NCBI GenBank assembly: GCA_017889635.1
Contig: JAGGAC010000005.1
Location: 1 to 64,000, forward strand
Direction of reading: 5' to 3'
Origin: Bacillota bacterium
GTDB taxonomy: Bacteria; Bacillota; Negativicutes; Sporomusales; CTSoil-080
DNA: 64,000 nucleotides
The notes under the pieces: model-generated
What the model saw: the letters and a program-made list of their open reading frames with translations, nothing else
What the model was told of the DNA's origin: nothing
Database searches by the model: none
Program-made: the position numbers and the translations under genes
Shown: positions 1 to 64,000 of the stretch, one piece after another
Layout: each line of letters opens with the position of its first letter
Position numbering within the stretch: the first letter of the stretch is position 1

Positions 1-228
1 GTAAGATACCATCAAGCTCAACATCCAGGGACCGAAAACTACCATCGCCACAAAAACGGCAACAATCTTAGGAATAAAGCTTAGAGTCTGTTCCTGGATT
101 TGGGTGGTGGCCTGAAATATGCTGACCACAATCCCCACTAAGAGACCTAAACCCAGCATTGGAGCCGATATCAGCATGACCATCAATAGCGCATCGCGCC
201 CAATTTGTAACGCTAGGTCACTAGACAT
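1..228 (-). CDS. fliQ: Flagellar export protein FliQ (partial, 3' end off window)
   Basis: The 76 visible residues start MSSDLALQIGRDALLMVML and form two hydrophobic helices around the motif FQATTQIQEQTLSFIPKI, which is characteristic of FliQ. FliQ is a small inner-membrane part of the flagellar type III export gate, together with FliP and FliR. The family is about 89 residues long, so roughly a dozen C-terminal residues are missing beyond base 1. The ATG at 226-228 has a GGAGGG-type ribosome site just upstream, and the gene follows fliP by about 12 bases, as in most flagellar operons. Confidence 0.93.
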   Translation of the reverse strand, partial: MSSDLALQIGRDALLMVMLISAPMLGLGLLVGIVVSIFQATTQIQEQTLSFIPKIVAVFVAMVVFGPWMLSLMVSY

Positions 229-240
229 CGTTACCCTCCT

Positions 241-1005
241 CTAATTAAAACTGGCGACCAATGAACGAATTACTAAATGCCAGCCGTCAACAAGGATAAA
301 TAGCAATATTTTGAACGGCAGTGAAATCATTACCGGCGGCAGCATCATCATCCCCATTGACATCAATGTACTGGCCACCACCATATCAATGACAATAAAA
401 GGGATGTAAATTAAAAAGCCAATTTGAAAAGCTGTTTTAAGTTCGCTGATGACAAATGCCGGTATTAAAGTAGTTGAAGGTATATCATCCTGTGAATTAG
501 GACGCGGCATTTCGGAAAGATTAACAAATAGCGCTAAATCATTTTCACGGGTTTGTTTAAACATAAATTCACGCATAGGTTTCATGGCTTCGGTCATTGC
601 TGTTTCCTGGGTTATGCTTCCCGCTAAATAAGGCTGCATAGCGTTATTATTGACCTGCGTGATATACGGTGACATAGTAAAAAAGGTCAAAAATAAGGAC
701 AAGCCAATAAGCACTTGGTTAGGCGGCATTTGTTGGGTAGCCAAGGCGCTGCGTAAAAATGAAAGCACTACAATAATTCTAGTAAATGAAGTCATCATTA
801 TTAGAATTGACGGCGCCAGCGTCAGCACTGTCAACATAAATAATATCTGTAGACTCAAGGCAACATCTTTTGGATTATTAGCAGCTTCGACTCCAATATT
901 AATACTTGGTATAGGAATTATCGGCGCAGCATATGCAGTTGCATCTGAAAGCAAGAGGCCAATAATTAAGCCAAAGCACAGTAATCCTTTATAGCGCTTA
1001 AGCAC
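241..1005 (-). CDS. fliP: Flagellar biosynthesis protein FliP
   Basis: FliP (254 residues) forms the core channel of the flagellar type III export gate in the cytoplasmic membrane. It has an N-terminal signal-like hydrophobic segment (about residues 8-27). The family signature LTLAPSILIMMTSFTRIIVV follows, then SFLRSALATQQMPPNQVLIG, a soluble loop with MKPMREFMFKQTRENDL, and two C-terminal membrane helices (FQIGFLIYIPFIVIDMVVAS onward). Length fits the family. The start is a GTG with AGAGGT about 6 bases upstream. It sits between fliO and fliQ in the usual export-gate order. Confidence 0.97.
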   Translation of the reverse strand: MLKRYKGLLCFGLIIGLLLSDATAYAAPIIPIPSINIGVEAANNPKDVALSLQILFMLTVLTLAPSILIMMTSFTRIIVVLSFLRSALATQQMPPNQVLIGLSLFLTFFTMSPYITQVNNNAMQPYLAGSITQETAMTEAMKPMREFMFKQTRENDLALFVNLSEMPRPNSQDDIPSTTLIPAFVISELKTAFQIGFLIYIPFIVIDMVVASTLMSMGMMMLPPVMISLPFKILLFILVDGWHLVIRSLVASFN

Positions 1006-1023
1006 TGCTTTACCTCTTCTCGT

Positions 1024-1560
1024 TTATTTGTCTTTACGACCATAGTTGCCAAATACCCCCGGAAACTTCTCCGACATATGCTGGAGCGACGTCAAGTGTT
1101 TCTGAAATACCATTTCAAATGGGGCAGCGGTCTCTACCGTTTGCAACACTTTTAGCTTCTCAATTTGCTGTAGATCAACTATCTCTTGTAACAAATTGAT
1201 GTTATGGTCAGTTACGCCTAGAACCAAAAACCTTCCCGCAACTTCAACCACATGGACAGCACGGTTTTGCCCTAAAGAAATAGTAACGCAAATCTTGTTA
1301 TCACCGCCTAAAGTAGTACTGCCCATCCGTTTACCTAAAAAGCGAGATGTACCATAAGCCAGAGCAAGTACAACAATGAATGTAACAAGAAGTGTAAAAA
1401 GATAGGCAATGGTCGAAAGCCATGAGGACCCAGCAGGCTCAGGTTCCTTGTAATTAAGATAGTTAGCTGATTGCTCTGCAGCCAAAGCCGGATGAGCCAA
1501 CGCCACTCCAACTAACAGTACGATAACGAGGATTAGAGGCCAACACTGAGTTTTTTTCAT
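1024..1560 (-). CDS. fliO: Flagellar biosynthetic protein FliO/FliZ family
   Basis: This 178-residue protein has a signal-like N-terminus (residues 7-27, ending ALAHPALAAEQ), a second membrane helix (about 49-70, YLFTLLVTFIVVLALAYG) and a basic cytoplasmic part. RFLGKRMG and GQNRAVHVVEVAGRFLVLGV are typical of FliO/FliZ. FliO helps assemble the FliP ring of the export gate. Its position between cheY and fliP is the standard one in Firmicutes. The extra N-terminal hydrophobic segment makes it longer than enterobacterial FliO, as is common for FliZ of Gram-positive bacteria. Confidence 0.88.
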   Translation of the reverse strand: MKKTQCWPLILVIVLLVGVALAHPALAAEQSANYLNYKEPEPAGSSWLSTIAYLFTLLVTFIVVLALAYGTSRFLGKRMGSTTLGGDNKICVTISLGQNRAVHVVEVAGRFLVLGVTDHNINLLQEIVDLQQIEKLKVLQTVETAAPFEMVFQKHLTSLQHMSEKFPGVFGNYGRKDK

Positions 1561-1563
1561 AAT

Positions 1564-1926
1564 TTATCCGACAACTTTACGTATTGCTTCCAAAACCCGA
1601 TCAGGCTGGAAGGGCTTTACAATAAAATCTTTCGCTCCAGATTGAATAGCCTCAATAACCATCGCCTGTTGTCCCATAGCACTACACATTATAACTTTGG
1701 CATTCGGATCAATACCCTTAATTTGTTTCACAGCCGTAATACCATCCATCTCCGGCATAGTAATATCCATTGTCGTCAGGTCTGGTTTGAGTTCCTGATA
1801 TTTTTCAACCGCCTTTGCTCCGTTTTCCGCCTCTCCCACTACTTCAAAACCATTCTTAGACAGAATATCCTTAATCATCATCCTCATGAAAGCCGCATCG
1901 TCAACAATCAATACTTTAGTTGCCAT
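1564..1926 (-). CDS. cheY: Chemotaxis response regulator CheY
   Basis: A 120-residue stand-alone receiver domain. The acidic pair is in VLIVDDAAFMR (residues 5-15), the phosphoacceptor Asp is residue 54 (TTMDITMPEMDG), the switch Ser/Thr lies in MCSAMGQQ, and the conserved Lys is in FIVKPF. Phosphorylated CheY binds FliM and FliY at the motor switch and changes rotation. It lies directly after fliY and before fliO, as in the B. subtilis fla/che operon. Confidence 0.96.
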   Translation of the reverse strand: MATKVLIVDDAAFMRMMIKDILSKNGFEVVGEAENGAKAVEKYQELKPDLTTMDITMPEMDGITAVKQIKGIDPNAKVIMCSAMGQQAMVIEAIQSGAKDFIVKPFQPDRVLEAIRKVVG

Positions 1927-1958
1927 TTTAATACCTCTCCTATCAATTAATTTTTATA

Positions 1959-3077
1959 TTATTGCAGTGCGGTGCGGTCGAGTTGACCAATAATTTCGGT
2001 TATTCTTACCCCGAAGTTCTCGTCAATTACTACAACCTCGCCTTTGGCGATAAGTTTGCCATTTGCCAGTATATCCACAGGTTCACCGGCAAGTTTGTCA
2101 AGTTCAACAACAGAACCAGGGCTAAGTTCTAGAATATCCCGAATGAGTTTTTTCGTCCGCCCCAGTTCAACAGTCACCTGAAGTGGTACATCCATAATCA
2201 AACTTATATTTGCATCAATAGCCGGCATATTTGCCGGAGTAAACGAAGTGAATTGTGCAGGTTGTACAGTAACATTGCCCTGATGTTGAACATAACCAGA
2301 TGGCTGCGCCACCATTGGTTGAGGCATAGATTGCGTAGCCGGAGGAGTCGGAGGAAGAGTCGTGATTGGAGGTTGAGTCGCCTGAGGCGCTGGTTTAACT
2401 TGAGGAGCAGCCGTTTCCACAGACTTCAAGAGATTCCCTACTAATTCTTGGGCTACAGGAATAGAAACAATCTGCATGATTTCGCTGTCAATAAGGTCTT
2501 CCACCTCCATTCGGAATGACACTTCAACAACAGTTTCGTCCTTTACAGGCATACCTTCCAAATCCATATCAGTACCAAAATCCACAATATTACAGTTCGG
2601 TGGGGCTATATCAATTTTTTTCTTAAAAATAGTGGACATTGAGGTCGCCACAGCCCCCATCATCTGGTTCATGGCCTCAGAAACTGCGCTCATGTAAAGT
2701 TCATTTAACTCGGTAGGTGGATTGGATCCATCGCCGCCCATCATCAAATCAGCAATAATAAGCGCATCCTCCTGGCGCATAGCCAAAAGGTTAGAGCCAG
2801 TAATTCCAACAGTATAACCAACTTCAATTATGAGATAAGGCATTGGATACTTGTGTTTAAATTCATTTAAATTAGTGACGTTCACCTTGGGAGTGGTAAT
2901 TGACACACGTCGTGAGAGCAAAATTGACAAGGTAGTTGCCGCACTACCCATTGAAATGTTGCCAATCTCACCCATAGCATCCTTTTCAATATCACTAAGG
3001 GCATCGCCCTGCACTGCTGCGGGTTCTCCGCGCAGCAACGCGTCTATTTCTTCTTGAGATAAAAAACCGCTATTCAT
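1959..3077 (-). CDS. fliY: Flagellar motor switch phosphatase FliY
   Basis: About 372 residues from the ATG preceded by GGAGAGG; an upstream in-frame TTG overlapping fliM further is less likely. The N-terminus MNSGFLSQEEIDALLRG resembles the CheY-P-binding peptide of FliM. A CheC-like phosphatase domain follows with two E-x-x-N type motifs (GEIGNISMG and SEAMNQMMG). Next comes a Pro/Gln-rich linker (about 225-290) and a C-terminal FliN/SpoA domain (VPLQVTVELGRTKKLIRDIL). It forms part of the C-ring and dephosphorylates CheY-P. The gene overlaps the end of fliM by a few bases, implying translational coupling. Confidence 0.95.
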   Translation of the reverse strand: MNSGFLSQEEIDALLRGEPAAVQGDALSDIEKDAMGEIGNISMGSAATTLSILLSRRVSITTPKVNVTNLNEFKHKYPMPYLIIEVGYTVGITGSNLLAMRQEDALIIADLMMGGDGSNPPTELNELYMSAVSEAMNQMMGAVATSMSTIFKKKIDIAPPNCNIVDFGTDMDLEGMPVKDETVVEVSFRMEVEDLIDSEIMQIVSIPVAQELVGNLLKSVETAAPQVKPAPQATQPPITTLPPTPPATQSMPQPMVAQPSGYVQHQGNVTVQPAQFTSFTPANMPAIDANISLIMDVPLQVTVELGRTKKLIRDILELSPGSVVELDKLAGEPVDILANGKLIAKGEVVVIDENFGVRITEIIGQLDRTALQ

Positions 3078-4077
3078 CGCCATCCTCTCCTTTCGCAATA
3101 ATTTGACTTATCTGCACCGCTAGTTTTTTTCCGGCTACGCCTGGTTTGCATTTGAACTTCGCATTTGTTCCAATAATAACACTAAGATCATCATTAGTTC
3201 TTGTTTCAAGTTGCATTACGTCTCCTACAGCCAAATTCAAAAGTTCATGAACATTTATATTGATGCTGCCAAGTTCAACAATCATCGGAATCAAAGATCT
3301 TTCAAGCTTGCGCTGTAAAGCGCTGATAGTATCATCCGACGTCTGTTTTGACACAGACGAAGCTACCCAAAAGGTTGTCGACAATTTAGACATAATCGGT
3401 TCCAACACCAAATAAGGAATGCAAATATTTATCAGCCCCTCGGCTTGGCCAATTTTGGTCTGAAGAGTGACAATAACAACCATGTCATTGGGTGGCACTA
3501 TCTGGGTAAATTGCGGATTAGTCTCTATTACCTCCATTTTGGGTTCAATGAGGATAAACTGTTTCCACGCTTCTTGAAAACTTTCGAGAGCCTTTGTTAT
3601 AACCTTCCTAATAATGGCTTCTTCAATATCGGTTAATGATCGTGTTTTAGTCGGAGCACTCCCCATTCCACCAAACAGTCGGTCAATTATTGCAAATACA
3701 ATATTAGGATTAACTTCAAGAAGTACTGTTCCTTTTAATGGCCGCATTTGAAAAATACTGATAACACTTGGGTTAGGCAACGACCGAATAAATTCTTCAT
3801 AAGTCAACTGATCAACCGAAACCACATTAATATGGACAAAGGTTCTTAAAAGCGCAGCCAAATAAGTATTAAGTAATCGAGCAAAATTTTCATGTAACAT
3901 ATATAAAGTGCGAATTTGGTCCTTGGAAAATTTATCAGGACGTTTAAAGTCATATAGCTTGATTTTTTTCTGATTTTGCTCAACTTTCATATCCTCGGCT
4001 GATACAATGCCAGTCGATAAGGCGGATAAAAGTTCATCTATTTCTGATTGGGATAAAACATCAGGGCCCGCCACCAA
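3070..4077 (-). CDS. fliM: Flagellar motor switch protein FliM
   Basis: FliM (335 residues) is the middle C-ring protein that receives CheY-P and contacts FliG. Residues 8-18 (LSQSEIDELLSA) form the CheY-P-binding peptide. KLYDFKRPDKFSKDQIRTL marks the start of the central CheC-like domain, and the C-terminal SpoA domain includes VGDVMQLETRTNDDLSV. The start is most likely TTG at 4075-4077 (or the next codon, GTG), six bases after a run of seven G. It lies between fliL and fliY. Confidence 0.96.
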   Translation of the reverse strand: MVAGPDVLSQSEIDELLSALSTGIVSAEDMKVEQNQKKIKLYDFKRPDKFSKDQIRTLYMLHENFARLLNTYLAALLRTFVHINVVSVDQLTYEEFIRSLPNPSVISIFQMRPLKGTVLLEVNPNIVFAIIDRLFGGMGSAPTKTRSLTDIEEAIIRKVITKALESFQEAWKQFILIEPKMEVIETNPQFTQIVPPNDMVVIVTLQTKIGQAEGLINICIPYLVLEPIMSKLSTTFWVASSVSKQTSDDTISALQRKLERSLIPMIVELGSININVHELLNLAVGDVMQLETRTNDDLSVIIGTNAKFKCKPGVAGKKLAVQISQIIAKGEDGDE

Positions 4078-4106
4078 AAAGTACCCCCCCTTCGCACTGG
4101 CCTATC

Positions 4107-4580
4107 CTACTGCAAAACAAAGCTTGTGATATAAACATCCATAACCACATCTTTTCCCAAGGCCTTATTTACTTCATTTTTTATAAGTTCTTTTAACTGC
4201 TCTTGTTTTGACGGTTCAAAGTCTTCTAGCTTTTGTGACCTGAGAACATAAACGACTGAATCCTGTATCTTAATTTCCTCAGGAGATTGCGTTTTTCCTC
4301 CCGATTCTTGTGTTTTCGTGTCAGTTTTTAGCTCCAGCGCCAAGCCAATTTTTAGATACCGTCCACTATTAAAGCCCCCAATATTAATAATAAGTCCGTC
4401 TTTAGCGTCACCAACCTTCATAAGTACACCGGGTTCGCGGACTGCCGCCTTGTCATGGCTTTTTTCACTCGAAAATTTAGTTACGACATAATAAGAAATC
4501 CCACCCGCAAAAATACAACATATAACTAGTATCATAACAATCATCATCATGGGAAATCCTTTTTTTTCTTTTTCAGCCAT
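4107..4580 (-). CDS. fliL: Flagellar basal body-associated protein FliL
   Basis: A 157-residue single-pass membrane protein. It has a short basic cytoplasmic N-terminus, a membrane helix at about residues 9-31 (MMMIVMILVICCIFAGGIS), and a periplasm-side FliL domain that ends ELIKNEVNKALG...VMDVYITSFVLQ. FliL surrounds the stator units at the basal body and modulates torque. A GGAGG site precedes the ATG. Here it directly follows motA, whereas motB often separates the two in related operons. Confidence 0.94.
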   Translation of the reverse strand: MAEKEKKGFPMMMIVMILVICCIFAGGISYYVVTKFSSEKSHDKAAVREPGVLMKVGDAKDGLIINIGGFNSGRYLKIGLALELKTDTKTQESGGKTQSPEEIKIQDSVVYVLRSQKLEDFEPSKQEQLKELIKNEVNKALGKDVVMDVYITSFVLQ

Positions 4581-4628
4581 GTACAGTACCTCCTCTTTTT
4601 ACCACTAAAAAACCCGTTGCTAAAAATC

Positions 4629-5405
4629 CTATTTTTCTTTATTACTTTGCTTTATACGGTCTCGCGGCGGAAGAAAAGCTTCAAGTTTTTCTTCAACAAT
4701 ACGCGGATTATCACCAGCTTGTACCGAAAGGATGCCTTCCAAAGCTACCTCATAAACAACAATTTGGTTTGCACTACGATTTTTTAATTTGGCGGCAATC
4801 GGCAAGAAAAAAACATTGGCGCTTCCAATACCGTAAAGTGTTGCTAAAAACGCGGTAGCAATTGCCGGTCCTAGTGCATCGGCGTCTTTTAGACTACCCA
4901 AGACATGAACCAGTCCCATTACAGTACCAATAATACCCATAGTAGGAGCATAGCCTCCCGCTGCATCAAAAATGCTGGCGCCTTTATGGTGACGTTCTTG
5001 AATAAATGCCAATTCGGTTTCCATTATACTACGCACCAGTTCGGCATCAGTACCATCAATGACAAGTTGCATTCCTTTACGCAAAAACTTATTATCAATT
5101 GTAGCGAGATCATCCTCCAAAGCAAGCAGCCCTTCCTTGCGCGCTTTTTCGGCAAACTTAACCACCAAGGCGATTAGTTGCATAACATCGTAGTCTTCCT
5201 CGAAAAAGGCGATACGGAGCAACGTTGGTACGTTTTTTAAATCTTTGACTGAAAAACCGATAGCCGTAGCGCCAACAGTACCACCAAAGATAATGATAAA
5301 AGCAGGCAAACTTATCATACTGGCGAGATGGCCGCCTTCGACTACAACTCCTACCAACAATCCGCCTATGCCTATAATTAAGCCTAGCGTTGTTGTTAAA
5401 TCCAT
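4629..5405 (-). CDS. motA: Flagellar motor stator protein MotA/MotP family
   Basis: About 258 residues from the ATG with GAGGTG six bases upstream. Four membrane helices are visible: two at the N-terminus (LGLIIGIGGLLVGVV; LPAFIIIFGGTVGATAIG) and two after the large cytoplasmic loop (YAPTMGIIGTVMGLVHVLG; IATAFLATLYGIGSANVFFLPIA). The loop contains a charged segment that would contact FliG. MotA pairs with MotB to form the ion-conducting stator. No motB follows; the next gene is fliL. Whether it is proton (MotA) or sodium (MotP) coupled cannot be told here. Confidence 0.93.
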   Translation of the reverse strand: MDLTTTLGLIIGIGGLLVGVVVEGGHLASMISLPAFIIIFGGTVGATAIGFSVKDLKNVPTLLRIAFFEEDYDVMQLIALVVKFAEKARKEGLLALEDDLATIDNKFLRKGMQLVIDGTDAELVRSIMETELAFIQERHHKGASIFDAAGGYAPTMGIIGTVMGLVHVLGSLKDADALGPAIATAFLATLYGIGSANVFFLPIAAKLKNRSANQIVVYEVALEGILSVQAGDNPRIVEEKLEAFLPPRDRIKQSNKEK

Positions 5406-5419
5406 ATCGCGCACCTCAC

Positions 5420-5617
5420 TTATCGTGAATTACGATAAAGGGCTCTACGATACTCCATTACTCGGCGAACCACTTCATCCATGGACTCGTTTACAATTAG
5501 TTTTTTGCCGCTAGTAAGTGTAATAACAGTATCCGGAGTTTCTTCTATCGTCTCAATCAAATCAGCATTAATAACAAATTCATGATCGCGAGTTTTAAAC
5601 TTTGTAAGTTTAATCAT
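5420..5617 (-). CDS. flbD: Flagellar FlbD family protein
   Basis: A 65-residue protein of the small FlbD family of Firmicutes and spirochetes (not the Caulobacter transcription factor). MIKLTKFKTRDHEFVINADLIETIEETPDTVITL matches the family pattern of short beta strands followed by a C-terminal helix (SMDEVVRRVMEYRR). Its role is poorly defined, but it regularly sits between flgE and motA, as here. Confidence 0.9.
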   Translation of the reverse strand: MIKLTKFKTRDHEFVINADLIETIEETPDTVITLTSGKKLIVNESMDEVVRRVMEYRRALYRNSR

Positions 5618-5645
5618 TTTATTCCTCCATAAAACGAGGGATTAA

Positions 5646-5661
5646 GGGGGGAAATCCCCCC
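5646..5661 (-). other. G6/C6 hairpin between flgE and flbD
   Basis: Six G and six C flank a four-base loop (aaat), giving a very stable short hairpin in the gap between flgE and flbD. There is no U run next to it on the minus strand, so it is not a canonical intrinsic terminator. It could partly terminate transcription, or stabilise the 3' end of a highly expressed flgE transcript. Role inferred. Confidence 0.4.
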
Positions 5662-5679
5662 ACGCCCTACATGTTGCTA

Positions 5680-6912
5680 TTAGCGTTTCAGATTGGCAAG
5701 ATCCTGCAGCATCTCATCAGTTACAGTAATGATTTTAGAATTAGCCTGAAAACCACGTTGAGTAATAATCATGCTGCTAAATTCATTCGCCAAATCAACG
5801 TTTGACATTTCCAGTGTACCAGGACTAAAAGTCCCTCGTCCTCCGACTCCGCCCTGGTCGATAGCAGCTGTCCCTGAGTTGCTCGACTCTATAAACATGT
5901 TACTGCCTACTTTAGTCAGACCAGCAGGGTTTTCGAATATTGCCAGTGCTACTTTTCCCATTACCTGGCTTTGCCCATTATCAAACCGTCCCATCAAACT
6001 GCCGTTAGGATCAATAGAAACATTCTGCAGTGTTCCAGATTTGTACCCATCAGAATCTCCCACCAACGTAGCATCTCCAGCATACTGGGTAATTCCGGAG
6101 AAATCAGGAGTAATAGTTACTGCAGCAGCAGGGTTTCCTGGAGCGGCCGGAGTTACAACAAAGCCAGCTGCAGCAGCTCCGCCAGCAGTCAATGTACCAT
6201 CAGCATTAAAGGTAATTGTGTACGGACCGCCAGTCACAGTTGAAGTTGCATCACCAGCGGCAACAGCCATACTCCAGGTACCAATACCAGTCTTGGTAAA
6301 AGTGCATGATACATTATGAGCACTGCCATTGGTATCATACGCAGTAACTGTTTTTGACAAAGATTTTCCGATATCTGCAGCAGCATCAAGATTTTTAGAA
6401 AACATTGCCTTAGAAGAAGCTTTAGGGGCCATAGCAGTCCCCACCGGCACCTGTAGTGGACCTAGTGAAGTACCAACCGTGCCGTTGGTGCCTTGATAAC
6501 CCATAACCTTAAATCCAGTACCCGGCACAAGGAAATTACCCTGCTTGTCAAAATCAAAATTTCCAGCACGAGTATAAATATTATTCCCGGAGGAATCATG
6601 AAGAACAAAGAAGCCTTGTCCCTGTATCGAAAGATCGGTCAGCTTGCCGGTTGGCTGAAAGCTGCCGTCAGTAAAAATAGTGTCAATACTGGCGATACCC
6701 ACACCGAGTCCAACCTGCATTGGGTTGGTCCCCCCCCTATTACCCTGAGCGGAAGCTGCTCCTTGCAGGGTTTGGCTGAGAACATCCTGAAAGTTAGTGC
6801 GGCTGGACTTAAACCCCACGGTATTAACATTAGCAATATTATTGCCGATTACATCCATACGAGTTTGGTGGTTCTTTAGTCCGGAAACCCCGGAAAACAA
6901 CGAACGCATCAT
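5680..6912 (-). CDS. flgE: Flagellar hook protein FlgE
   Basis: A 410-residue rod/hook family protein. The N-terminal signature is MRSLFSGVSGLKNHQTRMDVIGNNIANVNT (residues 2-31), and the hook-specific LSIQGQGFFVL lies near residue 85. A variable Ala/Gly-rich centre (about 210-270) is surface exposed in known hooks. The C-terminus holds the conserved coiled part (SNVDLANEFSSMIITQRGFQANSKIITVTDEMLQDLANLKR). FlgE polymerises into the hook outside the cell. A GGGAGG site lies about 10 bases before tandem ATGs. It follows flgD and the TIGR02530-like gene, as usual. Confidence 0.96.
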   Translation of the reverse strand: MMRSLFSGVSGLKNHQTRMDVIGNNIANVNTVGFKSSRTNFQDVLSQTLQGAASAQGNRGGTNPMQVGLGVGIASIDTIFTDGSFQPTGKLTDLSIQGQGFFVLHDSSGNNIYTRAGNFDFDKQGNFLVPGTGFKVMGYQGTNGTVGTSLGPLQVPVGTAMAPKASSKAMFSKNLDAAADIGKSLSKTVTAYDTNGSAHNVSCTFTKTGIGTWSMAVAAGDATSTVTGGPYTITFNADGTLTAGGAAAAGFVVTPAAPGNPAAAVTITPDFSGITQYAGDATLVGDSDGYKSGTLQNVSIDPNGSLMGRFDNGQSQVMGKVALAIFENPAGLTKVGSNMFIESSNSGTAAIDQGGVGGRGTFSPGTLEMSNVDLANEFSSMIITQRGFQANSKIITVTDEMLQDLANLKR

Positions 6913-31679: not shown

Positions 31680-32033
<354 letters not shown>

Positions 32034-32041
32034 TCACCATT

Positions 32042-32073
32042 AAAAACTAGCGTCTTAATAGCCGCTAGTTTTT
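32042..32073 (-). terminator. Terminator-like hairpin just upstream of the PII gene
   Basis: An 11-base-pair perfect stem (AAAAACTAGCG / CGCTAGTTTTT) with a 10-base loop ends in five U. The U run finishes about 24 bases before the PII start codon. It could end an upstream transcript or act as an attenuator for the PII gene. Confidence 0.65.
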
Positions 32074-32100
32074 AATAAAATCGAACTTTTATCGGTACTT

Positions 32101-32145
32101 TAGATTGCACGCTCTTTAACATTATTACCAGAAGATCTTCACTAG
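32101..32145 (-). pseudogene. Decayed fragment resembling the comM 3' end
   Basis: On the minus strand this stretch shares a 16-base exact run and most flanking bases with the last codons of the intact comM gene (39329-39365). It would encode NNVKERAI-stop against NNVKDSAI-stop. The reading frame upstream is broken. It may be a relic of a lost comM copy; chance similarity is less likely but not excluded. Confidence 0.5.
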
Positions 32146-32252
32146 ATTGATTCTATACTGACTCACTATTCTCCTTCCATATATAGCCTCAGCCGCATCA
32201 AGAACAAATATTCCTTTCAAAGATGGTCCACATGCCTTATCAAATTAGATTT

Positions 32253-32345
32253 CTCTTTCTACTGTAACTATAGCAGCTTTATGGGGAAACCTCCAAATCA
32301 TAGGTAAACGCTATAATATTACTGCAGATTTAAACTCATTCTAAC
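32253..32345 (-). pseudogene. Decayed fragment resembling the malic enzyme 3' part
   Basis: On the minus strand a translation like NIIAFTYDLEVSP followed by a stop matches YIIPFAYDLEVAP of the intact malic enzyme (about 32626-32735). Similarity continues past the stop with AAAGCTGC...TAGAAAGAG, with small deletions. This looks like a rotted partial duplicate 280 bases downstream of the intact gene. Confidence 0.6.
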
Positions 32346-32502
32346 TTAAGACTAAAACTCACCTTGTTATAGCCAGTTATATATGGTTATGCTCCCAACC
32401 AGCTTGCTGCTACAAACCTTTATCCGCTTCGAACTTATCCTTGTAGTAGAGACCCATACTATTCAACTGCTTAAATTATAGAGATACTTTCTTAGCATAC
32501 AC

Positions 32503-32551
32503 AAAAAGGACTCATCAGATTAGACTAAACCATCCTGATGAGTCCCTTTTG
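32503..32551 (-). terminator. Intrinsic terminator after malic enzyme
   Basis: An 11-base-pair perfect stem (GGACTCATCAG / CTGATGAGTCC) lies about 17 bases beyond the malic enzyme stop. Its T run on the minus strand is TTTTTGTG. The opposite strand also shows CTTTTGTTTTT, so it could work both ways. Confidence 0.88.
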
Positions 32552-32561
32552 TTTTTACGTG

Positions 32562-33797
32562 TTAAGCTTTAAGATTTTGAGTGAGTTTTCTCGCGTTTTC
32601 TTCCACCCATTCAGGCGTTACACCGCTCTTTCTAGCAACTCCAGTGGCAATTGCAGCTTTAGCCACTGCAGCGGCTACTTTAGGAGCTACTTCTAAATCA
32701 TAGGCAAACGGTATAATATACTGCTCATTTAGCTCCGCCTCAGGAATATACTCGGCAATTGCCTTAGCTGCCGCGATCTTCATTTCTTCATTTATACAAC
32801 TAGCCCGAACATCAAGTGCTCCGCGGAAAATACCTGGAAAAGCCAGGACGTTGTTAACTTGATTTGGAAAGTCCGAACGACCTGTTCCAATTATCCGCGC
32901 GCCGCCTTTCTTGGCTTCATCCGGGTAAATTTCTGGTACAGGGTTTGCCATAGCAAATAATATGGCATCTTTATTCATGCTTTTAACCATTTCACAATTA
33001 ACAGAACCTGGAGCCGAAACTCCGATAAATATATCAGCGCCTTTGAGTGCATCTGCCAAATTACCTGTTAATTGTTCCGGATTAGTAATCTCAGCTAAAT
33101 TGTGTTTTTCCGGAGTTAGGTCAGAATTTTTTAATGAAACAATGCCCTTTCGGTCACACATAATAATATTTTTAGTTCCTATCGAAAGAAGTAATTTTGC
33201 AATAGCAACCCCGGCAGCCCCGGCACCGTTTATCACTACTTTAAGTCCAGAAAATTGTTTATTAACAAGTTTCAGTGCATTAATAAGTCCAGCTACTGTA
33301 ACAACAGCCGTACCATGTTGATCATCATGAAAGATAGGAATATTGGAAACTTTTTTTAACTCCTCCTCAATCTTGAAACATTCCGGAGCTTTTATATCCT
33401 CCAGATTAATACCACCAAAGGTGGGTTCCATTAGTTTTACAGCTTCAACAATCTTATTCGGGTCTTTTGTATCAAGACAAATAGGAAATGCGTCTACTCC
33501 GCCAAAAGCTTTAAAAAGTACTGCTTTCCCCTCCATTACCGGCATTCCGGCACCAGCTCCAATATCACCCAAGCCCAGCACCGCAGTCCCATTAGTCACA
33601 ACAGCAACCAAATTACCTTTTGCAGTATAATCGTATATTTTTTCAAAATCGGCTTTAATTTCAAGACACGGTTCAGCAACGCCAGGTGTATAAGCTAAAG
33701 CCAAATCATCCTTAGTTTTTACTGCCACTTTACTGCACAAACTAATCTTACCTTGATTTTCCTTATGCAGCTTTAATGCTCTTGCCTTTACATCCAA
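32562..33797 (-). CDS. NAD(P)-dependent malic enzyme (short type)
   Basis: A 411-residue oxidative decarboxylase converting malate to pyruvate. The Tyr of DDLALAYTPGVAEPC, Lys in VMEGKAVLFKAFGGVDAFP, NLEDIKAPECF and FHDDQHGTAVVT are the catalytic and metal-binding blocks. The Rossmann loop is KVVINGAGAAGVAIAKLLL. Lack of a C-terminal phosphotransacetylase domain matches the short bacterial class. It follows the CitS-type transporter by 75 bases and probably shares its transcript. Confidence 0.95.
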   Translation of the reverse strand: MDVKARALKLHKENQGKISLCSKVAVKTKDDLALAYTPGVAEPCLEIKADFEKIYDYTAKGNLVAVVTNGTAVLGLGDIGAGAGMPVMEGKAVLFKAFGGVDAFPICLDTKDPNKIVEAVKLMEPTFGGINLEDIKAPECFKIEEELKKVSNIPIFHDDQHGTAVVTVAGLINALKLVNKQFSGLKVVINGAGAAGVAIAKLLLSIGTKNIIMCDRKGIVSLKNSDLTPEKHNLAEITNPEQLTGNLADALKGADIFIGVSAPGSVNCEMVKSMNKDAILFAMANPVPEIYPDEAKKGGARIIGTGRSDFPNQVNNVLAFPGIFRGALDVRASCINEEMKIAAAKAIAEYIPEAELNEQYIIPFAYDLEVAPKVAAAVAKAAIATGVARKSGVTPEWVEENARKLTQNLKA

Positions 33798-37704: not shown

Positions 37705-39033
37705 TCAAAATACCTCGCCAGCTATCTCTCTTTTATTGTAACCGCTCCAATAATCGAAACTGTACCCTTTATTGCCACCCGCTCTGGGCAAATCCTCATC
37801 TGAACTATAAAAAGCCACATAAGTAAGTGTTTTTGCCCTACCAAAGGTACTATTATCACAACATCTGCTAATTTGTCGCCGCCAAGTTCCGGTATCAAAA
37901 AAGAACTCTTCCTTGCCATCATCGCGTCGGCGTAGATATTCTATCGCAGGATTATGAGTATGGCCGGAAACCAGATACTGATATTGAGCATTCTGCAAAA
38001 TAGGCTCCCTCTGAATATAGCTCCTCTGCGGTAAATACCACGAATCTTGCCCAGTTGATTGATTTCTCATTAAATAATTAATTAATAATTGTGGCGAAAT
38101 AACTGCAAAAACTCTTAACAAATAAAATTTCACCATCCCGAGTTTCTTGCATACAAATTCGCTTTCCAAAGCTCTTGGAAGAGCCATTGTAAATATAAAA
38201 TATAATAAAAACTTCCATGCCATATATTTATCTGCCATTTCTGATTCCAGAAACTTTTTTATTGCTGTCAAAGGTCTTAAATCATCAAACTCAAGAAACT
38301 TGCGGTAAATAAGTCTATATTCGTCTTGGTCTGGACCACATTTCATGTCTTTTTCATAACGCTTTCGGTATTCGAAAGCAACCCGAGCAGCAAAATCAAT
38401 TGTTACATAATCGCCAAGAGGAGCCAAATCATATTCTTCGTTTTTAACAACAAATGGACCCTTCCTAGGAATTTCTCCGGCAAAATTAATGGGATCATAC
38501 TCATGCCCGTGCCTAATGTGCACGCCATACTTCTCCATAACTATTTCATGTTCAAAGCATCCTTCGCCGTTAAGCCCTAATAGAGCTCTTACCCTTTTTT
38601 GCAGGGGCTCGTACAAATTAACTATTCGGTCGTGATTCCCCGGAATATATCTAAAATCTATTTTTACATCATTTGAACTAATTTCAAGTAGCTTATTAAA
38701 ACAATCAAAAGTCTGACGATTACTTTCAACAATGTCATCAAAAATCTTTACCGCAATGGGTCCCCATTTATCTGATGAATATTCGTCATATGGCCTGACA
38801 TCATAGTTAAACCACTGCCTACTCCGGTTAAAATCAAAGATATCTCCTGCCAAAACGATTATTAGTTCCTGGGCGTTATTGAGTCTAGCTAATGATCGAA
38901 GTTCCTCGAAAGTTGTCTCAAATACTTCATAAAATATATTTCGTTGTACATCGACAAGAATATTACCTTGCTCGTCTTTAATTACGTCATTGATAGTGTC
39001 TTGAAAATGAAGATCGCTAATCACCACCAACAT
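37705..39033 (-). CDS. Calcineurin-like metallophosphoesterase
   Basis: A 442-residue protein with metal-binding motifs of the family: ISDLHF (Asp7, His9), AGDIFDF (Asp64), PGNHDR (Asn133, His134), HIRHGHEYD and SGHTHNP. The long insertion (about 180-345) with aromatic and charged residues is unusual and may form a lid or membrane-contact part (KFLLYFIFTMALPRAL). The substrate is unknown. It is a single gene between the two-component system and comM, with AGAGGTG before the ATG and no clear terminator after it. Confidence 0.88.
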   Translation of the reverse strand: MLVVISDLHFQDTINDVIKDEQGNILVDVQRNIFYEVFETTFEELRSLARLNNAQELIIVLAGDIFDFNRSRQWFNYDVRPYDEYSSDKWGPIAVKIFDDIVESNRQTFDCFNKLLEISSNDVKIDFRYIPGNHDRIVNLYEPLQKRVRALLGLNGEGCFEHEIVMEKYGVHIRHGHEYDPINFAGEIPRKGPFVVKNEEYDLAPLGDYVTIDFAARVAFEYRKRYEKDMKCGPDQDEYRLIYRKFLEFDDLRPLTAIKKFLESEMADKYMAWKFLLYFIFTMALPRALESEFVCKKLGMVKFYLLRVFAVISPQLLINYLMRNQSTGQDSWYLPQRSYIQREPILQNAQYQYLVSGHTHNPAIEYLRRRDDGKEEFFFDTGTWRRQISRCCDNSTFGRAKTLTYVAFYSSDEDLPRAGGNKGYSFDYWSGYNKREIAGEVF

Positions 39034-39300: not shown

Positions 39301-39328
39301 CACCATAATAAGGTACTGTTATGTTCTT

Positions 39329-40855
39329 CTAGATCGCACTATCTTTAACATTATTACGTAGATGAATAGCTTCGGCAATGGCCGAAGCGCTTATTCTATC
39401 TTCTCCTGCCAAATCCGCTATAGAGCGAGCAACTTTCAGCACCCGGTCGTAACCGCGAGCACTTAAATTCATCTTCTCAAAAGCTTGCTCAAGCAACAGC
39501 TGCGCCTCATCAGTCATCAGGCATGTATTTTTTACATGGCGATGACTCATTTGGGAGTTAGCAAACAACCCGTATTTTCTAAGCCGCTCGCGCTGTCGTT
39601 CCCGGGCAGCTTCAACCCTTTGCCGAACTACCGCCGAAGTTTCGCCAACTTTATTAGCAGTAAATTCAGAGTATTCAAGACGAGGAACATTAATGTTAAT
39701 GTCAATACGGTCAAGCAGAGGACCGGAAATCTTCTTAATATAACGTCGAATATCGACCACTGTACAAGTGCACTCCCTATTAGAATCACCCAGGAATCCA
39801 CAAAAACACGGATTCATTGCCGCCACCAACATGAAATTAGCCGGATAAGACAGTGACGCATTTACCCTGGAAATAGTAACCTCACCATCTTCTACCGGCT
39901 GGCGAAGAACTTCTAACACTTGACGTGGAAACTCAGGCAGTTCATCTAAAAACAGCACTCCGTGGTGGCTTAAAGTTACTTCACCAGGTCGCGGAATCCT
40001 TCCGCCACCAATCATACCGGAATCAGAAATCGTATGATGCGGACTACGGAAAGGTCTTACAGCCACCAAGCCGGTATTATTCTTGAGTAGTCCAGCAATG
40101 CTGTAAATCTTCGTCACTTCCAGCGCTTCTTGTTCGGTCATCGTTGGTAAAATCGATGGCAGTCGTTTAGCCAGCATAGTTTTCCCCGAACCAGGCGGAC
40201 CGACTAAAAGAATATTATGTCCGCCGGTAGCAGCTATTTCAAGGGCGCGTTTAGCTACAACCTGCCCCTGTACCTCTGATAAATCATCGGTAGATGCGCA
40301 GTATGAAAACGGCGCACATTCTTTTGAGACTTGTTCTAGTAGCTTTTCCCCTCTTAAATGAAGGACAACTTCTTCAAGTGTCTTTGGAGCATAAACAATT
40401 AGATTCCCCGCAAAAACTGCTTCCTGAGCGTTTTCTGGCGCTACAATCACTTCACATTTTTCCTGCTCAGCAATTGAGGCAGCCATTGGTAATATTCCGG
40501 AAATTTCCCGCAACTTGCCTTCCAGCGATAATTCGCTGATAAAAACATAGCGACAACAACGTTCAGGGTCAATCTGTCCACTAGCCGCCAAAATTCCTAC
40601 TGCAATTGGCAAATCCAAACCTGAACCGTCTTTTCGCATATCAGCCGGAGCAAGATTTACAGTTATCCGCCGCACGGGAAATTCAAACCCTGTATTTTTA
40701 ATTGCGGCCCGTACCCGCTCCCGCGATTCTTTTACCGCCGTGTCAGGAAGTCCAACAATATCAAGACCCGGCAAACCGTTAGAAATATCGACTTCAACAA
40801 TTATTAATGCACCGTTAATGCCTAACGTCGCCGCCCCAAAGGTTTGTGCAAACAA
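39329..40855 (-). CDS. comM: ComM/YifB Mg-chelatase-like AAA+ ATPase
   Basis: ComM is a hexameric helicase that helps branch migration during integration of transformed DNA. About 508 residues from a TTG (40853-40855) with GGAGGAG upstream, so that the protein starts FAQTFGAATLGING like other YifB proteins; a GTG six codons earlier is the alternative. The Lon-like N-domain includes VDISNGLPGLDIVGLPDTAVKESRERVRAA. Walker A is GPPGSGKTMLAKRLPSILP, and the sensor region has RQPVEDGEVTISR. A C-terminal Mg-chelatase helical domain follows. Confidence 0.94.
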   Translation of the reverse strand: MFAQTFGAATLGINGALIIVEVDISNGLPGLDIVGLPDTAVKESRERVRAAIKNTGFEFPVRRITVNLAPADMRKDGSGLDLPIAVGILAASGQIDPERCCRYVFISELSLEGKLREISGILPMAASIAEQEKCEVIVAPENAQEAVFAGNLIVYAPKTLEEVVLHLRGEKLLEQVSKECAPFSYCASTDDLSEVQGQVVAKRALEIAATGGHNILLVGPPGSGKTMLAKRLPSILPTMTEQEALEVTKIYSIAGLLKNNTGLVAVRPFRSPHHTISDSGMIGGGRIPRPGEVTLSHHGVLFLDELPEFPRQVLEVLRQPVEDGEVTISRVNASLSYPANFMLVAAMNPCFCGFLGDSNRECTCTVVDIRRYIKKISGPLLDRIDININVPRLEYSEFTANKVGETSAVVRQRVEAARERQRERLRKYGLFANSQMSHRHVKNTCLMTDEAQLLLEQAFEKMNLSARGYDRVLKVARSIADLAGEDRISASAIAEAIHLRNNVKDSAI

Positions 40856-40896
40856 CCCAACTCCTCCATTCACTGACGCAGAAGCGCCAACTGAAT

Positions 40897-51743: not shown

Positions 51744-52661
51744 TCAGTTTCGGATAAACAAAGCGTCTGCAAACTCCTTAGGATCAAACGGCCGTAAATC
51801 ATCGGTTGCTTCCCCTATACCGATCCATTTTACCGGTAGCTCTAGTTCGGCTTTAATTGCGACAACAACTCCCCCCTTGGCTGTTCCGTCAAGTTTAGTC
51901 AAAACAACGCCTGAAACCTTGACTGCTTCTTTAAATAACTTAGCCTGAACTATCGCGTTTTGCCCAGTAGTAGCATCCAGCACCAACAAAACTTCATGCG
52001 GCGCGTCCGGTATTTCGCGGGCAATAACCCGGTAAATCTTCTTTAGTTCTTCCATCAAATTAGATTTTGTGTGCAGCCTTCCAGCGGTATCAACAATCAA
52101 AATATCAGCCCTTCGCGCCTTTGCTGCCTGTACAGCATCAAAAGCAACGGCCGCCGGATCGGAACCCTCACTGTGACAGATTACATCAGCATTTATACGC
52201 TGACCCCAGATTTCCAATTGGTCTATGGCCGCGGCCCGAAAAGTATCCCCGGCTGCTAAAAGCACCTTCAAACCCTGCTTATGATAATAGTTGCCAAGTT
52301 TACCAATAGTAGTAGTTTTACCAACACCGTTAACTCCCACCACCATGATTACAGTAGGCCCTTCACTAGCTTGTCCGAGCGGTGCCAATCCTTCATCCAG
52401 AATAGCGCTAATTCTATCTGCTAAGAAAGGCCTTAATTCTTCAGGAGACTGAATTTTATTCATTTTAATCGCGGTTTTGATATCAGTAATAAGCCGTGTT
52501 GTAGTATGAATCCCAACATCGGCCATTAACATTACTGCTTCCAAATCCGCGAGAAATTCTTCATCAATCTTGGTATAACCAGAAATTAGTTGTTCAATTT
52601 TCTCAGTAAAGCCATTGCGTGTTTTTGTCAATCCATCCTTTAGACGATCAAAAAATCCCAT
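51744..52661 (-). CDS. ftsY: SRP receptor FtsY
   Basis: A 305-residue SRP receptor GTPase. The N-domain is short, with no long acidic A-domain, as usual in Firmicutes. G1 is GVNGVGKTTTIGKLGNYY, the insertion box has AAGDTFRAAAIDQLEIW, G3 is DTAGRLHTKSNLMEEL, and G4 TKLDGTAKGG. It follows smc by about 18 bases. Confidence 0.97.
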   Translation of the reverse strand: MGFFDRLKDGLTKTRNGFTEKIEQLISGYTKIDEEFLADLEAVMLMADVGIHTTTRLITDIKTAIKMNKIQSPEELRPFLADRISAILDEGLAPLGQASEGPTVIMVVGVNGVGKTTTIGKLGNYYHKQGLKVLLAAGDTFRAAAIDQLEIWGQRINADVICHSEGSDPAAVAFDAVQAAKARRADILIVDTAGRLHTKSNLMEELKKIYRVIAREIPDAPHEVLLVLDATTGQNAIVQAKLFKEAVKVSGVVLTKLDGTAKGGVVVAIKAELELPVKWIGIGEATDDLRPFDPKEFADALFIRN

Positions 52662-52679
52662 TGTTTACCCTCCGTATTG

Positions 52680-55600
52680 TTAGCCAGCCCGATCAACAAA
52701 TTTGACGGACACCAATTTTGAAATACCTGACTCTTCCATAGTCACACCGTGCATGACATCAGCTGCTTCCATAGTACCTCTGCGATGGGTGACAATAATA
52801 AATTGTGTCCCCTTAGAATAATCGCGAAGAAAATCACTGAAACGCTGCACATTGGCTTCGTCCAGGGCGGCATCAATTTCATCCAGAACACAAAATGGCG
52901 TTGGCCGATGAGTAAGAAAAGCAAATAAAAGAGCAATAACAGTTAGAGCCCTTTCGCCACCAGAAAGCAGTGCCAAGTTCTGCTGTTTCTTACCAGGCGG
53001 CTGGACACTTATTTCAATGCCGCTGTTCAAAAGATCATCCGGATCAACAAGCTCAAGCTCTGCTTTACCGCCACCAAACAATTTGACATATAATTCTCCA
53101 AAATAAGTGTTTATCTTCTGAAATGCCTCACTAAATTGCCTGGACATTGTGCTGTCAATCTCTTTTATGATTGTTATTAGATAATCCTTAGCCGCCGCTA
53201 AATCTTGGTATTGGGTACGCAAAAATTCATAACGATCTTTGAGTTTGGCAAATTCCTCAATAGCTGCTGGATTTACCGGCCCCAGCATAGCGATTTCATC
53301 TTCAAGCTCGGCGATCTTAGCCGGAAGCGCAGTATGATCATCTTGCCGATATAAGCTTTTGGCCTCATCTATGCTCAGGGCATGGGTTTCGCGTAATTGT
53401 TCCAGACAATACTCGATCTCATAGCCAACTTTAGCTTCCAAAAGCTCCATTTCATGGCGGCGACTTTGTAAGGCATTGTTTTTTCGCCGCAATTCTTTTA
53501 TCTCACGTTCGAACTTCTGTTGTCCGGCTAGCACCTCAAGCTTAGCAGCTGATGCAATATTACGCTGTTCTTGCTGCTCTTTATTCCTAGCAGCCGCTAA
53601 TTCTCGCTTCTCTGCGATCACCATTAATTCAGCCTTGGCTTTGGCTATTTCCGATCTTACCCGCTGTTCTTCAGCAACAGCTGCCTCTAACAGGCCCTTT
53701 AAACGTCCTGATATTTGCAGGTAATGTTCGCAATTTTCCTTAATAGCATTAATCTCTTGATTTAAAGCTGATAGCCTGATTTTACTATCAGTCAGTGTAG
53801 CGCTAATTCTTTCCCGAGACACCTGCAAACCTTTTAGTTCTTCTTGCCAATCGGTCAATTGACGCTTATGCTCGACATCACGGCTTTCCAAAAACGCTAT
53901 CTGATTAGCGGCTGCAGTAATTTGGGTGGCATATGCATCGCTGCTGGTCATAGACGAAGCGACTTCTCTGGCAACAGTATCAATGGACAACGTTAAACGC
54001 TTAATGTCAAGGCCAATTTTCTCGGCATGCACCGACAGTTCAGCCTGCCTAAGTTCCTGCGTCCGGCGCATGTTGAACGCTGCACTGAGTTCATTATTGT
54101 GGGCAGCAATTTTTGCCCGAATGTTTTCCGCCTGATGGCGTACCTCGCCGCGTTTAGTTTCCATTTCTGTCACAGTAGCTTTAAGGACTTCTATTTCATT
54201 GCTGCGACTGATAAAACTCGCCTCGCGCCGTCCGACGCTCCCTCCAGTAATGCTGCCGCCTGGACTAACAAGTTCACCGTCTAACGTTACAATCCTCACA
54301 CCAAAAGCCTGCTGTCTGGCAATCCCAAGCGCCGCATCTATATCTTTCGCAACAACAGTTCGAGCCAAAAGATATTCCACTACTGGCCGATAACGTTCTT
54401 CACACTCAACCAGATCGGAAGCAAAACCAATCGCCCCTGAAGAAAGAGCTGCAGCTCTTTCTGCCTCTCTGGGTCGATTAACTTTTATTGTATTAAGCGG
54501 CAAAAAGGTTGCCCGACCAAGATTTTGGTGTTTTAAAAGACCGATTGCCGCCTTGGCTGTAGCATCGCTTTCAACAATAATATGCTGAAGCGCACCGCCC
54601 AAAGACGTTTCTATAGCCACAACATATTCGCTCGGAACGGTAAGAATTTGAGCTACCGCACCGCATACTTCATGCCGCCAGGGGGCGGTACTCTTGAGTA
54701 CGCTCTTTACGCCCCGGCCAAAGCCCTCGTATTCATCCTGCATATTGACCAGTACTTTTAATCGGGACGCTGTTTCGCCGATTTTCCCAGTCTGATGCGC
54801 TTCTTCCGCCACAACTTTAGTTAGCGTCTTTTCTTGCTGTTGTATTTGATCAGTTAGCTCACCAATAAGATAATTAGTTCTCAATTGCTCTTGTTTCAGC
54901 GCTGCTTGTTCGGCACTAGCATTATCTAATAAGCCTTTGCTTTCCGCTAATTGATTACTAAAATTCTGTCGCTCTTTGTCCAGTTGCCCCTGCCTTTGTC
55001 TCAGAATCTCAAGATCGCGTTCTAATGTACGCAAAGTATTCTTATTAGTAACAAGCTCCTGCATGTGGTCAAAATTCTTGTCCTTAGCGGTCTCAATCTG
55101 GCGTTCCACAACGCCGATAGCGTCCTCTACCTCCTGGAACTTCTCCTCACAAGAGGCTTGAGTCGTCTCAAGCTCTTTCTCCTGCCCCTCTTTCTCCCGA
55201 AGTACCTCGCGCCGCGACTCAAGCATTCGCTGGTTTTCTTCAGTTTCCATGCCAAGTCGCTTCTTTTCCTGCTCCAGTCGTTCACAACTCTTGTGTTCTT
55301 GCTCAGTACGCTCAGTAAGAACAGCAGCTTTACCATCCATCCGTTCAATTTCAGTAGTCGTACTGTTAATAACATTCTCAATGCTTTTAATGGTTTCATC
55401 CAAATCAATAAGCTTGTCGGTGAGGCGTTCTTTGTCAGTTTCGGTAATCGCCAATCTGGCAGTCACATCTGTTTCCTCGTCAGTTAAAGCGGCCTTTTCT
55501 AGATTTACCGACTCCTGATTCTTTTCAGCGTGGCTAAGCTTATCCAAAAGCAAAGTAACTTGGCAACCAGTTAATTCCTGTGCAAGTTCATTATACCGGG

Positions 55601-61343: not shown

Positions 61344-64000
61344 TTATCCTCTAGGACTATTTTTCACAAACCAATGCTCAACTGTATCCGCAAAATCTGC
61401 GGCCGCACAAGGTAAGCCAGACTCACAAGTTTCTTCCGCTGCTGCACTGCTCTTCTCTCCGACTACTCGAAGAATTTCAGCGATAATTTCAGCATTGGTT
61501 TTGCCAATACGGCTTGGTATAGCAGCATTAAGCTTCTGCGTACGCTTTTCGCTATTAGTATATGTGCCATCAGTCTCAGCAAACGTAGCCAGCGGCAACA
61601 CAACATCAGCCAATTTTGCAGTTTCAGTAAGAAATACATCCGCTACCATCGTAAATTCGCTTTCTTTTATGCTTAGCGCAGCATTGTTCACGCCGCAGCC
61701 CACTGGATCTTCGCCGAAAATTACGAAAGCGTCTTTAGCCTTACTGCAAGCTGCTTCAAAGCCCAAATCAATTGCACCTTGAGTATTAGCTTTACCGTGC
61801 ATTACCAGAAGCGACTTATCGGCCTTACCAGCAGCAAGAGCTAGGCCTGCAACAGCTTCAGCTTCATGGGCGCTGATATCTCCGCCAATAACGAAGACAG
61901 GTTTTTTAGCTCCGGCCAGCAGTTCTACCAACCGGGCCCTTTGCGCATGCTTTTCATTGTCGCCACATTCACAAGCTTTGGCCTCTTTACCACGGATAGC
62001 ATCAACGCAGCTATTTATAAAGCAGGTGATATTTTCTTGTTTTATAGCCATAACCTCGGTTGCATAACGAGTCATTTTGCTTGGCTGGTCATAAACCAGT
62101 ACAAGTTCAGCTCCCCTTTCGGCGGCTTCTTTGACCATTAATGCAGCCACTGGATTGACTTCTTTAATATCAAAGCCGATACAAGCAATAAAGTCAGCAG
62201 CTTTAAGTTCCTCATAAGTTGCAGTTTTTGCTTTATTACCAAGTGCTTTGGCAACACCAAAGGCGGCGGTCCGTAGACCAAAACTAGCCGGTTTAATATT
62301 AAAGGACTTTTGAGCCAGTTGTTTAACCAAAGACAACTCTTCGTTAGTAAGACGCTGGGATGCGTAAATCCCGGTTTTGCTGGATTTCTTCGTCAGCTTT
62401 TCACCAATCACCTGATAAGCTTCCTCCCAGGAAGCTGATACTAACTTACCGTTTTTGTTTATAAACGGCTGAGTCAACCGATCGGCAGCATTGATAAAGT
62501 CATTGCCAAATCTACCGCGGGTACAAAGATTACCATTATTTACACCTTGTCCTACTTGGGCAGTAGTCCTAACATACTGTCCAGCAGTAATATTTATTTC
62601 TAACGAACAGCCTGTACCACAGTAGTTACAAATAGTTGAAATTGTTTTTTCCACAAATGGACCTGGTTTGGGCAAATGTACCTTTTCAACAAGCGCGCCT
62701 ACCGGACAGCTTGACACGCACTGACCGCAAGACTCACAACGGGATTCTTCGGCAAAAGCCTTACCGAAGGACGGCGCAACAACAGTATTGTAGCCGCGTG
62801 AAATAAACCCAATAGCGCCAGCCCCCTGTAGTTCATGACATATTCTTACACAGCGACCACACATAATGCATTTGTTCTGGTCACGAGTAATAAACGGATG
62901 AGAATCATCTATTGGATGTTTGCTGATAGCTCCAGCTAAACGGTTTTGCTCAGCCTTATAGGTTGTAGCAAACTCCCTGAGCTTACATTCATGCACATCT
63001 TTACAGCCGCAAGACAGGCACCTTTCAGCCTCACGCCGCGCCTGTTCTTCGACAAAGCCGAGTTCAACTTCTTTAAAGTTGTGTTCGCGGGCTTTTTTAT
63101 CAAGCATCGGCATTTTTTCTTTAACAACTTTGGGTAGTTGCTCAAATTCTTCTTTATTCAGTTCCTTCAGTTTACCTTTTACATGGTTATATGCCGAAGC
63201 TAGTTTTTCCAGCTTCTGACCACGTACGAATTGATCAATTGCTAGCGCAGCCTGGCGGCCAGCTGCAATCGCAGCTATAGCGGTCTTGGGTCCGGTAACA
63301 ACATCACCGCCAGCAAAAACACCCTCAATATTAGTTGTCATGAGATCTTGATCAACTTGAATACGATTTCTAACAGCATTAAGCGCAAAATCAGAACTGA
63401 TAAATGAAAGATCCTGATCCTGGCCAATAGCCGCAATAACATAGTCACATTCTTCCACAAATTCTGAACCTGCAACCCGAACTGGACTGCGACGTCCTGA
63501 AGCATCCATTTCGCCAAGTTCCATCCGATACAATGTTAAGGCAACCCGGCCATTAATTTCAGCAACTTTATCTGTTGCGACAAGTTCTACAATATGAACG
63601 CCTTCAAATTCGGCTTCTTCTATTTCCATTTCATGCGCTGGCATTTCGGCTTTAGTACGACGATAAGCCATTTTCACTTCACTCGCACCAAGCCTGATTG
63701 CAGTTCTAGCAGCATCGACAGCAGTATTGCCGCCGCCAACAACAATTACTTTCTTGCCAGTCATATCCGCTGGTTGACCTAACCCAACCGTACCCAAAAA
63801 TTCAACACCGGCGAGAATGTTAGCAATGCCTTCTTCCCCGTCACACCCCAACTTTGTACCTACCTGCGATCCAACACCAAGAAAAATTGCAGCGTAGCCG
63901 TCTTTCTTCAGACTAGCGGTAGTCACGTCTTTACCAAAAGTAGTATTGTAACGAATCTCAACGCCTAGCGCTTTAATAAGATCAATTTCTTTATCCAAGA
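61344..64000 (-). CDS. NfnB/GltD-like and NuoG-like fused oxidoreductase (partial, 5' end off window)
   Basis: At least 884 residues are visible; the N-terminus lies beyond base 64000. The first 260 form an FAD/NAD(P)-binding GltD/NfnB-like module (KKVIVVGGGNTAVDAARTA, near 82-100; GVFAGGDVVTGPKTAIAAIAAGRQAA). Then come CLSCGCKDVHEC (327-338), two ferredoxin-like clusters CIMCGRCVRIC (377-387) and CESCGQCVSSCP (421-432), and a molybdopterin-oxidoreductase Fe-S domain (ICNYCGTGC...LCTRGRFG). A shortened NuoG-like tail ends in NSPRG. It resembles the large subunit of Sporomusa-type transhydrogenases; this is an inference. Confidence 0.85.
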   Translation of the reverse strand, partial: LDKEIDLIKALGVEIRYNTTFGKDVTTASLKKDGYAAIFLGVGSQVGTKLGCDGEEGIANILAGVEFLGTVGLGQPADMTGKKVIVVGGGNTAVDAARTAIRLGASEVKMAYRRTKAEMPAHEMEIEEAEFEGVHIVELVATDKVAEINGRVALTLYRMELGEMDASGRRSPVRVAGSEFVEECDYVIAAIGQDQDLSFISSDFALNAVRNRIQVDQDLMTTNIEGVFAGGDVVTGPKTAIAAIAAGRQAALAIDQFVRGQKLEKLASAYNHVKGKLKELNKEEFEQLPKVVKEKMPMLDKKAREHNFKEVELGFVEEQARREAERCLSCGCKDVHECKLREFATTYKAEQNRLAGAISKHPIDDSHPFITRDQNKCIMCGRCVRICHELQGAGAIGFISRGYNTVVAPSFGKAFAEESRCESCGQCVSSCPVGALVEKVHLPKPGPFVEKTISTICNYCGTGCSLEINITAGQYVRTTAQVGQGVNNGNLCTRGRFGNDFINAADRLTQPFINKNGKLVSASWEEAYQVIGEKLTKKSSKTGIYASQRLTNEELSLVKQLAQKSFNIKPASFGLRTAAFGVAKALGNKAKTATYEELKAADFIACIGFDIKEVNPVAALMVKEAAERGAELVLVYDQPSKMTRYATEVMAIKQENITCFINSCVDAIRGKEAKACECGDNEKHAQRARLVELLAGAKKPVFVIGGDISAHEAEAVAGLALAAGKADKSLLVMHGKANTQGAIDLGFEAACSKAKDAFVIFGEDPVGCGVNNAALSIKESEFTMVADVFLTETAKLADVVLPLATFAETDGTYTNSEKRTQKLNAAIPSRIGKTNAEIIAEILRVVGEKSSAAAEETCESGLPCAAADFADTVEHWFVKNSPRG

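Follow-up and report, generated by a model that had tools for sequence, protein, structure and literature searches.

The gap between the PII and malic enzyme genes raises the question of what the gene-like segments inside it are, and how they came to lie there. In the 64,000-nucleotide stretch of bacterial DNA analysed as a whole (the window), a sequence-only reading had placed a malic enzyme-like segment at 32253-32345 and a comM-like one at 32101-32145, both on the minus strand, and had taken both for decayed 3' ends. We found two shorter pieces in a gap that otherwise consists of spacers and hairpins. The features, in the direction of transcription, are the following:

39329-40873, minus strand: intact comM, source of one scrap, an open frame of 514 amino acids
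32562-33797, minus strand: intact gene for malic enzyme (Pfam malic and Malic_M above cut-off), from which the other scrap derives
32501-32552, minus strand: strong terminator-like hairpin at the end of the malic operon (about -32 kcal/mol, T run, inverted repeat)
32333-32500, minus strand: spacer upstream of the malic scrap, with no malic or comM similarity above shuffles and own-genome matches at E >= 0.57 at best
32277-32332, minus strand: decayed malic enzyme copy, codons ~356-374, from source 32678-32731 (minus)
32129-32276, minus strand: spacer between the two scraps, with no malic or comM similarity above shuffles
32085-32128, minus strand: decayed comM 3' end and about 16 nt beyond its stop, from source 39315-39357 (minus)
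32033-32085, minus strand: hairpin of the PII gene leader, next to the comM scrap (fold -18.5 kcal/mol)

Two decayed gene pieces in the gap

When the minus strand of 32060-32560 was aligned locally with the intact gene, the malic scrap scored 53, while none of 500 dinucleotide shuffles got beyond 33; it was also the best blastn match against the whole window (E 6.6e-7). Identity was 80.4% over 56 alignment columns with two single-base gaps. The resemblance proposed earlier therefore stands for 32277-32332 but not for the outer parts of 32253-32345, where no malic similarity exceeded shuffles under strict scoring. A continuation past 32277 (KAAI... vs KAAIATG...) was convincing by eye, but the flank alone did not rise above shuffles and was rejected. 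The scrap translates as NIIAFTYDLEVSP-stop, its counterpart in the intact enzyme being YIIPFAYDLEVAP, and the stop is created by a 1-nt insertion. The frame-breaking lesions already suspected were found again: two 1-nt indels and the stop disable the copy, of which ~18 of 411 codons are left. Since the match covers codons ~356-374 of 411, this is an internal fragment and not, as had been thought, the last codons of the gene; the final 37 codons are absent from it. Two residues, L368 and E369, are common to the scrap and the intact gene and are rare (almost none) in the 83 orthologous segments aligned, which places the copying within this lineage. The malic enzyme gene is single-copy in this genome. 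When genome contigs were scanned with the malic protein, only relatives at 58-66% came up, none of them in the same gene neighbourhood.

The core of the comM scrap (32101-32128) matches comM at 25 of 28 nt up to the stop codon, including a 16-base exact run, and scored 41 against a shuffle maximum of 32 (500 dinucleotide shuffles). The match continues weakly beyond the stop to 32085, and with this extension the score rose to 47 (shuffle maximum 33). Its E-value was 2.6e-5 within the window and 0.0019 across the whole 4.5-Mb genome. Here too the earlier claim was narrowed: the 16-base run and the peptide NNVKERAI-stop held up, whereas similarity at 32129-32145 was not above chance in shuffles. 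The match upstream of 32128 likewise looked convincing by eye and was discarded, the flank alone not exceeding shuffles. About 9 of 514 codons are retained. The scrap ends in -NNVKERAI, the intact gene in -NNVKDSAI and comM of the same-family genome G001 in -NNIKENAL; thus V and AI are as in the intact gene, and E is as in G001 and several other relatives. The intact gene was matched in all 40 relatives searched, and the scrap stops where the PII leader hairpin starts.

Each scrap exceeded every shuffle, the check set at the outset. Together with the stop and indels and the lineage-specific residues shared with the intact malic enzyme, this significance supports the view that they are decayed duplicated pieces. 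Uptake of related foreign DNA, also entertained earlier, is not needed, because the malic scrap has the rare L368 and E369 and the comM scrap shares '-AI-stop' with the intact gene. These residues thus place the source of the scraps in this lineage or one very closely related to it.

The gap compared with other intergenic regions

The two scraps were the top matches in the window, the next one having an E-value of 0.13. We then surveyed 479 kb of this genome, using 400 kb of stretches. Of the 198 intergenic regions covered, 60 kb in total, this spacer alone held two long-diverged matches, separate from each other, to intact genes nearby. The other strong matches of the survey arose in tandemly repeated or duplicated regions, in a family of non-coding repeats and in terminator-like hairpins on one contig, and two further matches to coding sequence scored just 38-40. 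Relaxed 5/-4 scoring gave global-like noise only and was abandoned. Similarity by chance, or a conserved non-coding element, is hardly credible: the matches are short, but shuffle tests, E-values and the intergenic survey all speak against it, as does the lack of conservation in 60 relatives.

The gap held no open frame of note and nothing near an Rfam gathering score. The spacer had no match in the 60 relatives, of which the closest belong to the same family, save one of 34 nt (88%) in G019; this lies inside an unrelated ABC phosphate-permease-like gene and was taken as chance. We propose no function for the gap, and the scraps are read as real but ordinary.

Gene blocks on either side

The malate block between comM and the gap comprises a calcineurin-like gene, a kinase, a regulator, a 2HCT transporter and the malic enzyme. 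The comparison of the locus with related genomes, as suggested earlier, was made with same-family genomes at closest. The order PII-Amt-SIR2-folP-folK-MGDG synthase-dprA-topA is kept in the same-family G001, and the window's PII leader aligns in part with that of G001, where a rubredoxin/flavoprotein-like gene, and no malic gene, stands before PII. No 2HCT transporter was found in either of the same-family genomes G001 and G002, and kinase, regulator, transporter and malic enzyme form one unit in four other relatives (G013, G021, G022 and G027). In relatives of other families folP lies 1-5 kb after comM, and the comM-folP interval is therefore variable. These flank comparisons indicate that the spacer is the junction of a variable block and a conserved block.

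Origin of the scraps

Both scraps are real, broken, on the same strand and similarly diverged (~20%). The gap probably holds the eroded, non-functional scars of a rearrangement junction, left when the malate block came to lie between comM and the PII block. Such a rearrangement would have placed the malate block between comM and the PII-Amt-SIR2-folP block. Just upstream of the PII leader it would have left a comM end, displaced or duplicated, and next to this a stray malic fragment; later mutation and deletion would then have eroded both. A comM scrap adjoining the PII leader is what one would expect if comM had once ended at that point and the malate block had later come between. Against an insertion, however, comM-PII adjacency predating it was seen in none of the relatives compared, and ~315 nt of the gap without any match count against a block insertion as well. 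A plain insertion also leaves the malic fragment, lying between the intact malic gene and the comM scrap, unexplained. This fragment could have been added by eroded tandem amplification, by template switching or by an unrelated second event, and the boundaries of the scraps may come from deletion instead of the original breakpoints.

The malic piece does lie upstream of the comM piece, both on the minus strand, as first described, while the source genes run comM then malic. A simple tandem duplication in two copies is thus excluded, as had been argued, because the resulting order would be wrong. A tandem amplification could get round this: a unit reaching from the end of comM to malic enzyme would have existed in at least three copies, all but one since deleted, with the remnants stemming from successive units. 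It accounts for a malic remnant before a comM remnant on the same strand and for their similar divergence, and the removal of bacterial pseudogenes is known to be fast (PMC2916853). It nevertheless presupposes three or more copies that were then lost almost entirely, and the gap yielded no trace of the kinase, regulator, transporter or calcineurin-like gene. We regard this amplification as unlikely.

We give little credence to template switching in replication or repair, by which short stretches lying 0.4 and 7.2 kb upstream would have been copied serially into a single breakpoint. Two short same-strand fragments with abrupt ends, side by side and with sources within 7.3 kb, would fit such copying; yet deletion leaves abrupt ends too, 148 nt of filler separate the pieces, no original junction survives for a microhomology test, and no clear bacterial precedent was found in the literature searched.

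The malate block is flanked on both sides by direct repeats (39330-39357 and 32101-32128) that agree at 25/28 nt and end at the stop codon of comM. This arrangement could recall an integrative element that entered at the 3' end of comM, with the 7.2-kb block as its domesticated remainder and the comM scrap as its second attachment site, and in relatives comM is interrupted by serine-recombinase-like elements. But a site-specific element is unlikely because no recombinase lies between the repeats, just the five genes of the malate block. Moreover, the recombinase elements of relatives enter comM at codons ~356-391 and not at the 3' end, and the malic scrap would go unexplained, which makes this origin decidedly improbable.

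Likeness to known remnants

Pseudogene fragments of bacteria have been surveyed across 64 prokaryote genomes (PMC522871). Like them, the scraps are truncated, carry a stop and indels, have no open frame and lie near intact source genes. Unlike them, they are very short (56 and 28-44 nt), and two sources are represented side by side in reversed order. Scars at rearrangement or insertion junctions can include displaced 3' ends of genes at insertion sites. Our locus resembles these in having a copy of a gene 3' end across an extra block, in direct orientation, but differs in that the block is without recombinase or transposase and an inner gene has contributed a second scrap alongside. The value of the finding is modest: a compact bacterial spacer bordering a lineage-specific metabolic block keeps recognisable rearrangement scars, and such gene scraps can be distinguished from chance by shuffles and an intergenic survey.

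Other observations on comM and on repeats

In G027, G030 and G018, insertions of 54-88 kb split comM at about codons 356-391 (L205 1-2629; L207 4679-7310; L210 33-1956), and comM is therefore an integration hotspot in the group. Right at the breakpoint in all three lies a large gene that, by eye and from its N-terminus, was judged serine-recombinase-like. In G001, two contigs (C109 end, L133 2571; C52 end, L136 13407) terminate inside comM at codon 356, the insertion point of other relatives, which suggests an element there. The calcineurin-like phosphoesterase gene beside comM (window 37708-39033) was without a match in 40 relatives at E 1e-10. Elsewhere, on contig C68 of G000, a non-coding stretch of 200-320 nt recurs at 40427-40629, 52525-52836 and 62113-62431 (L153-L154), with 83% identity between copies and at least three copies within 22 kb. 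Positions 1-6257 of the same contig (L151) contain diverged direct repeats (81-90%) resembling local duplications.
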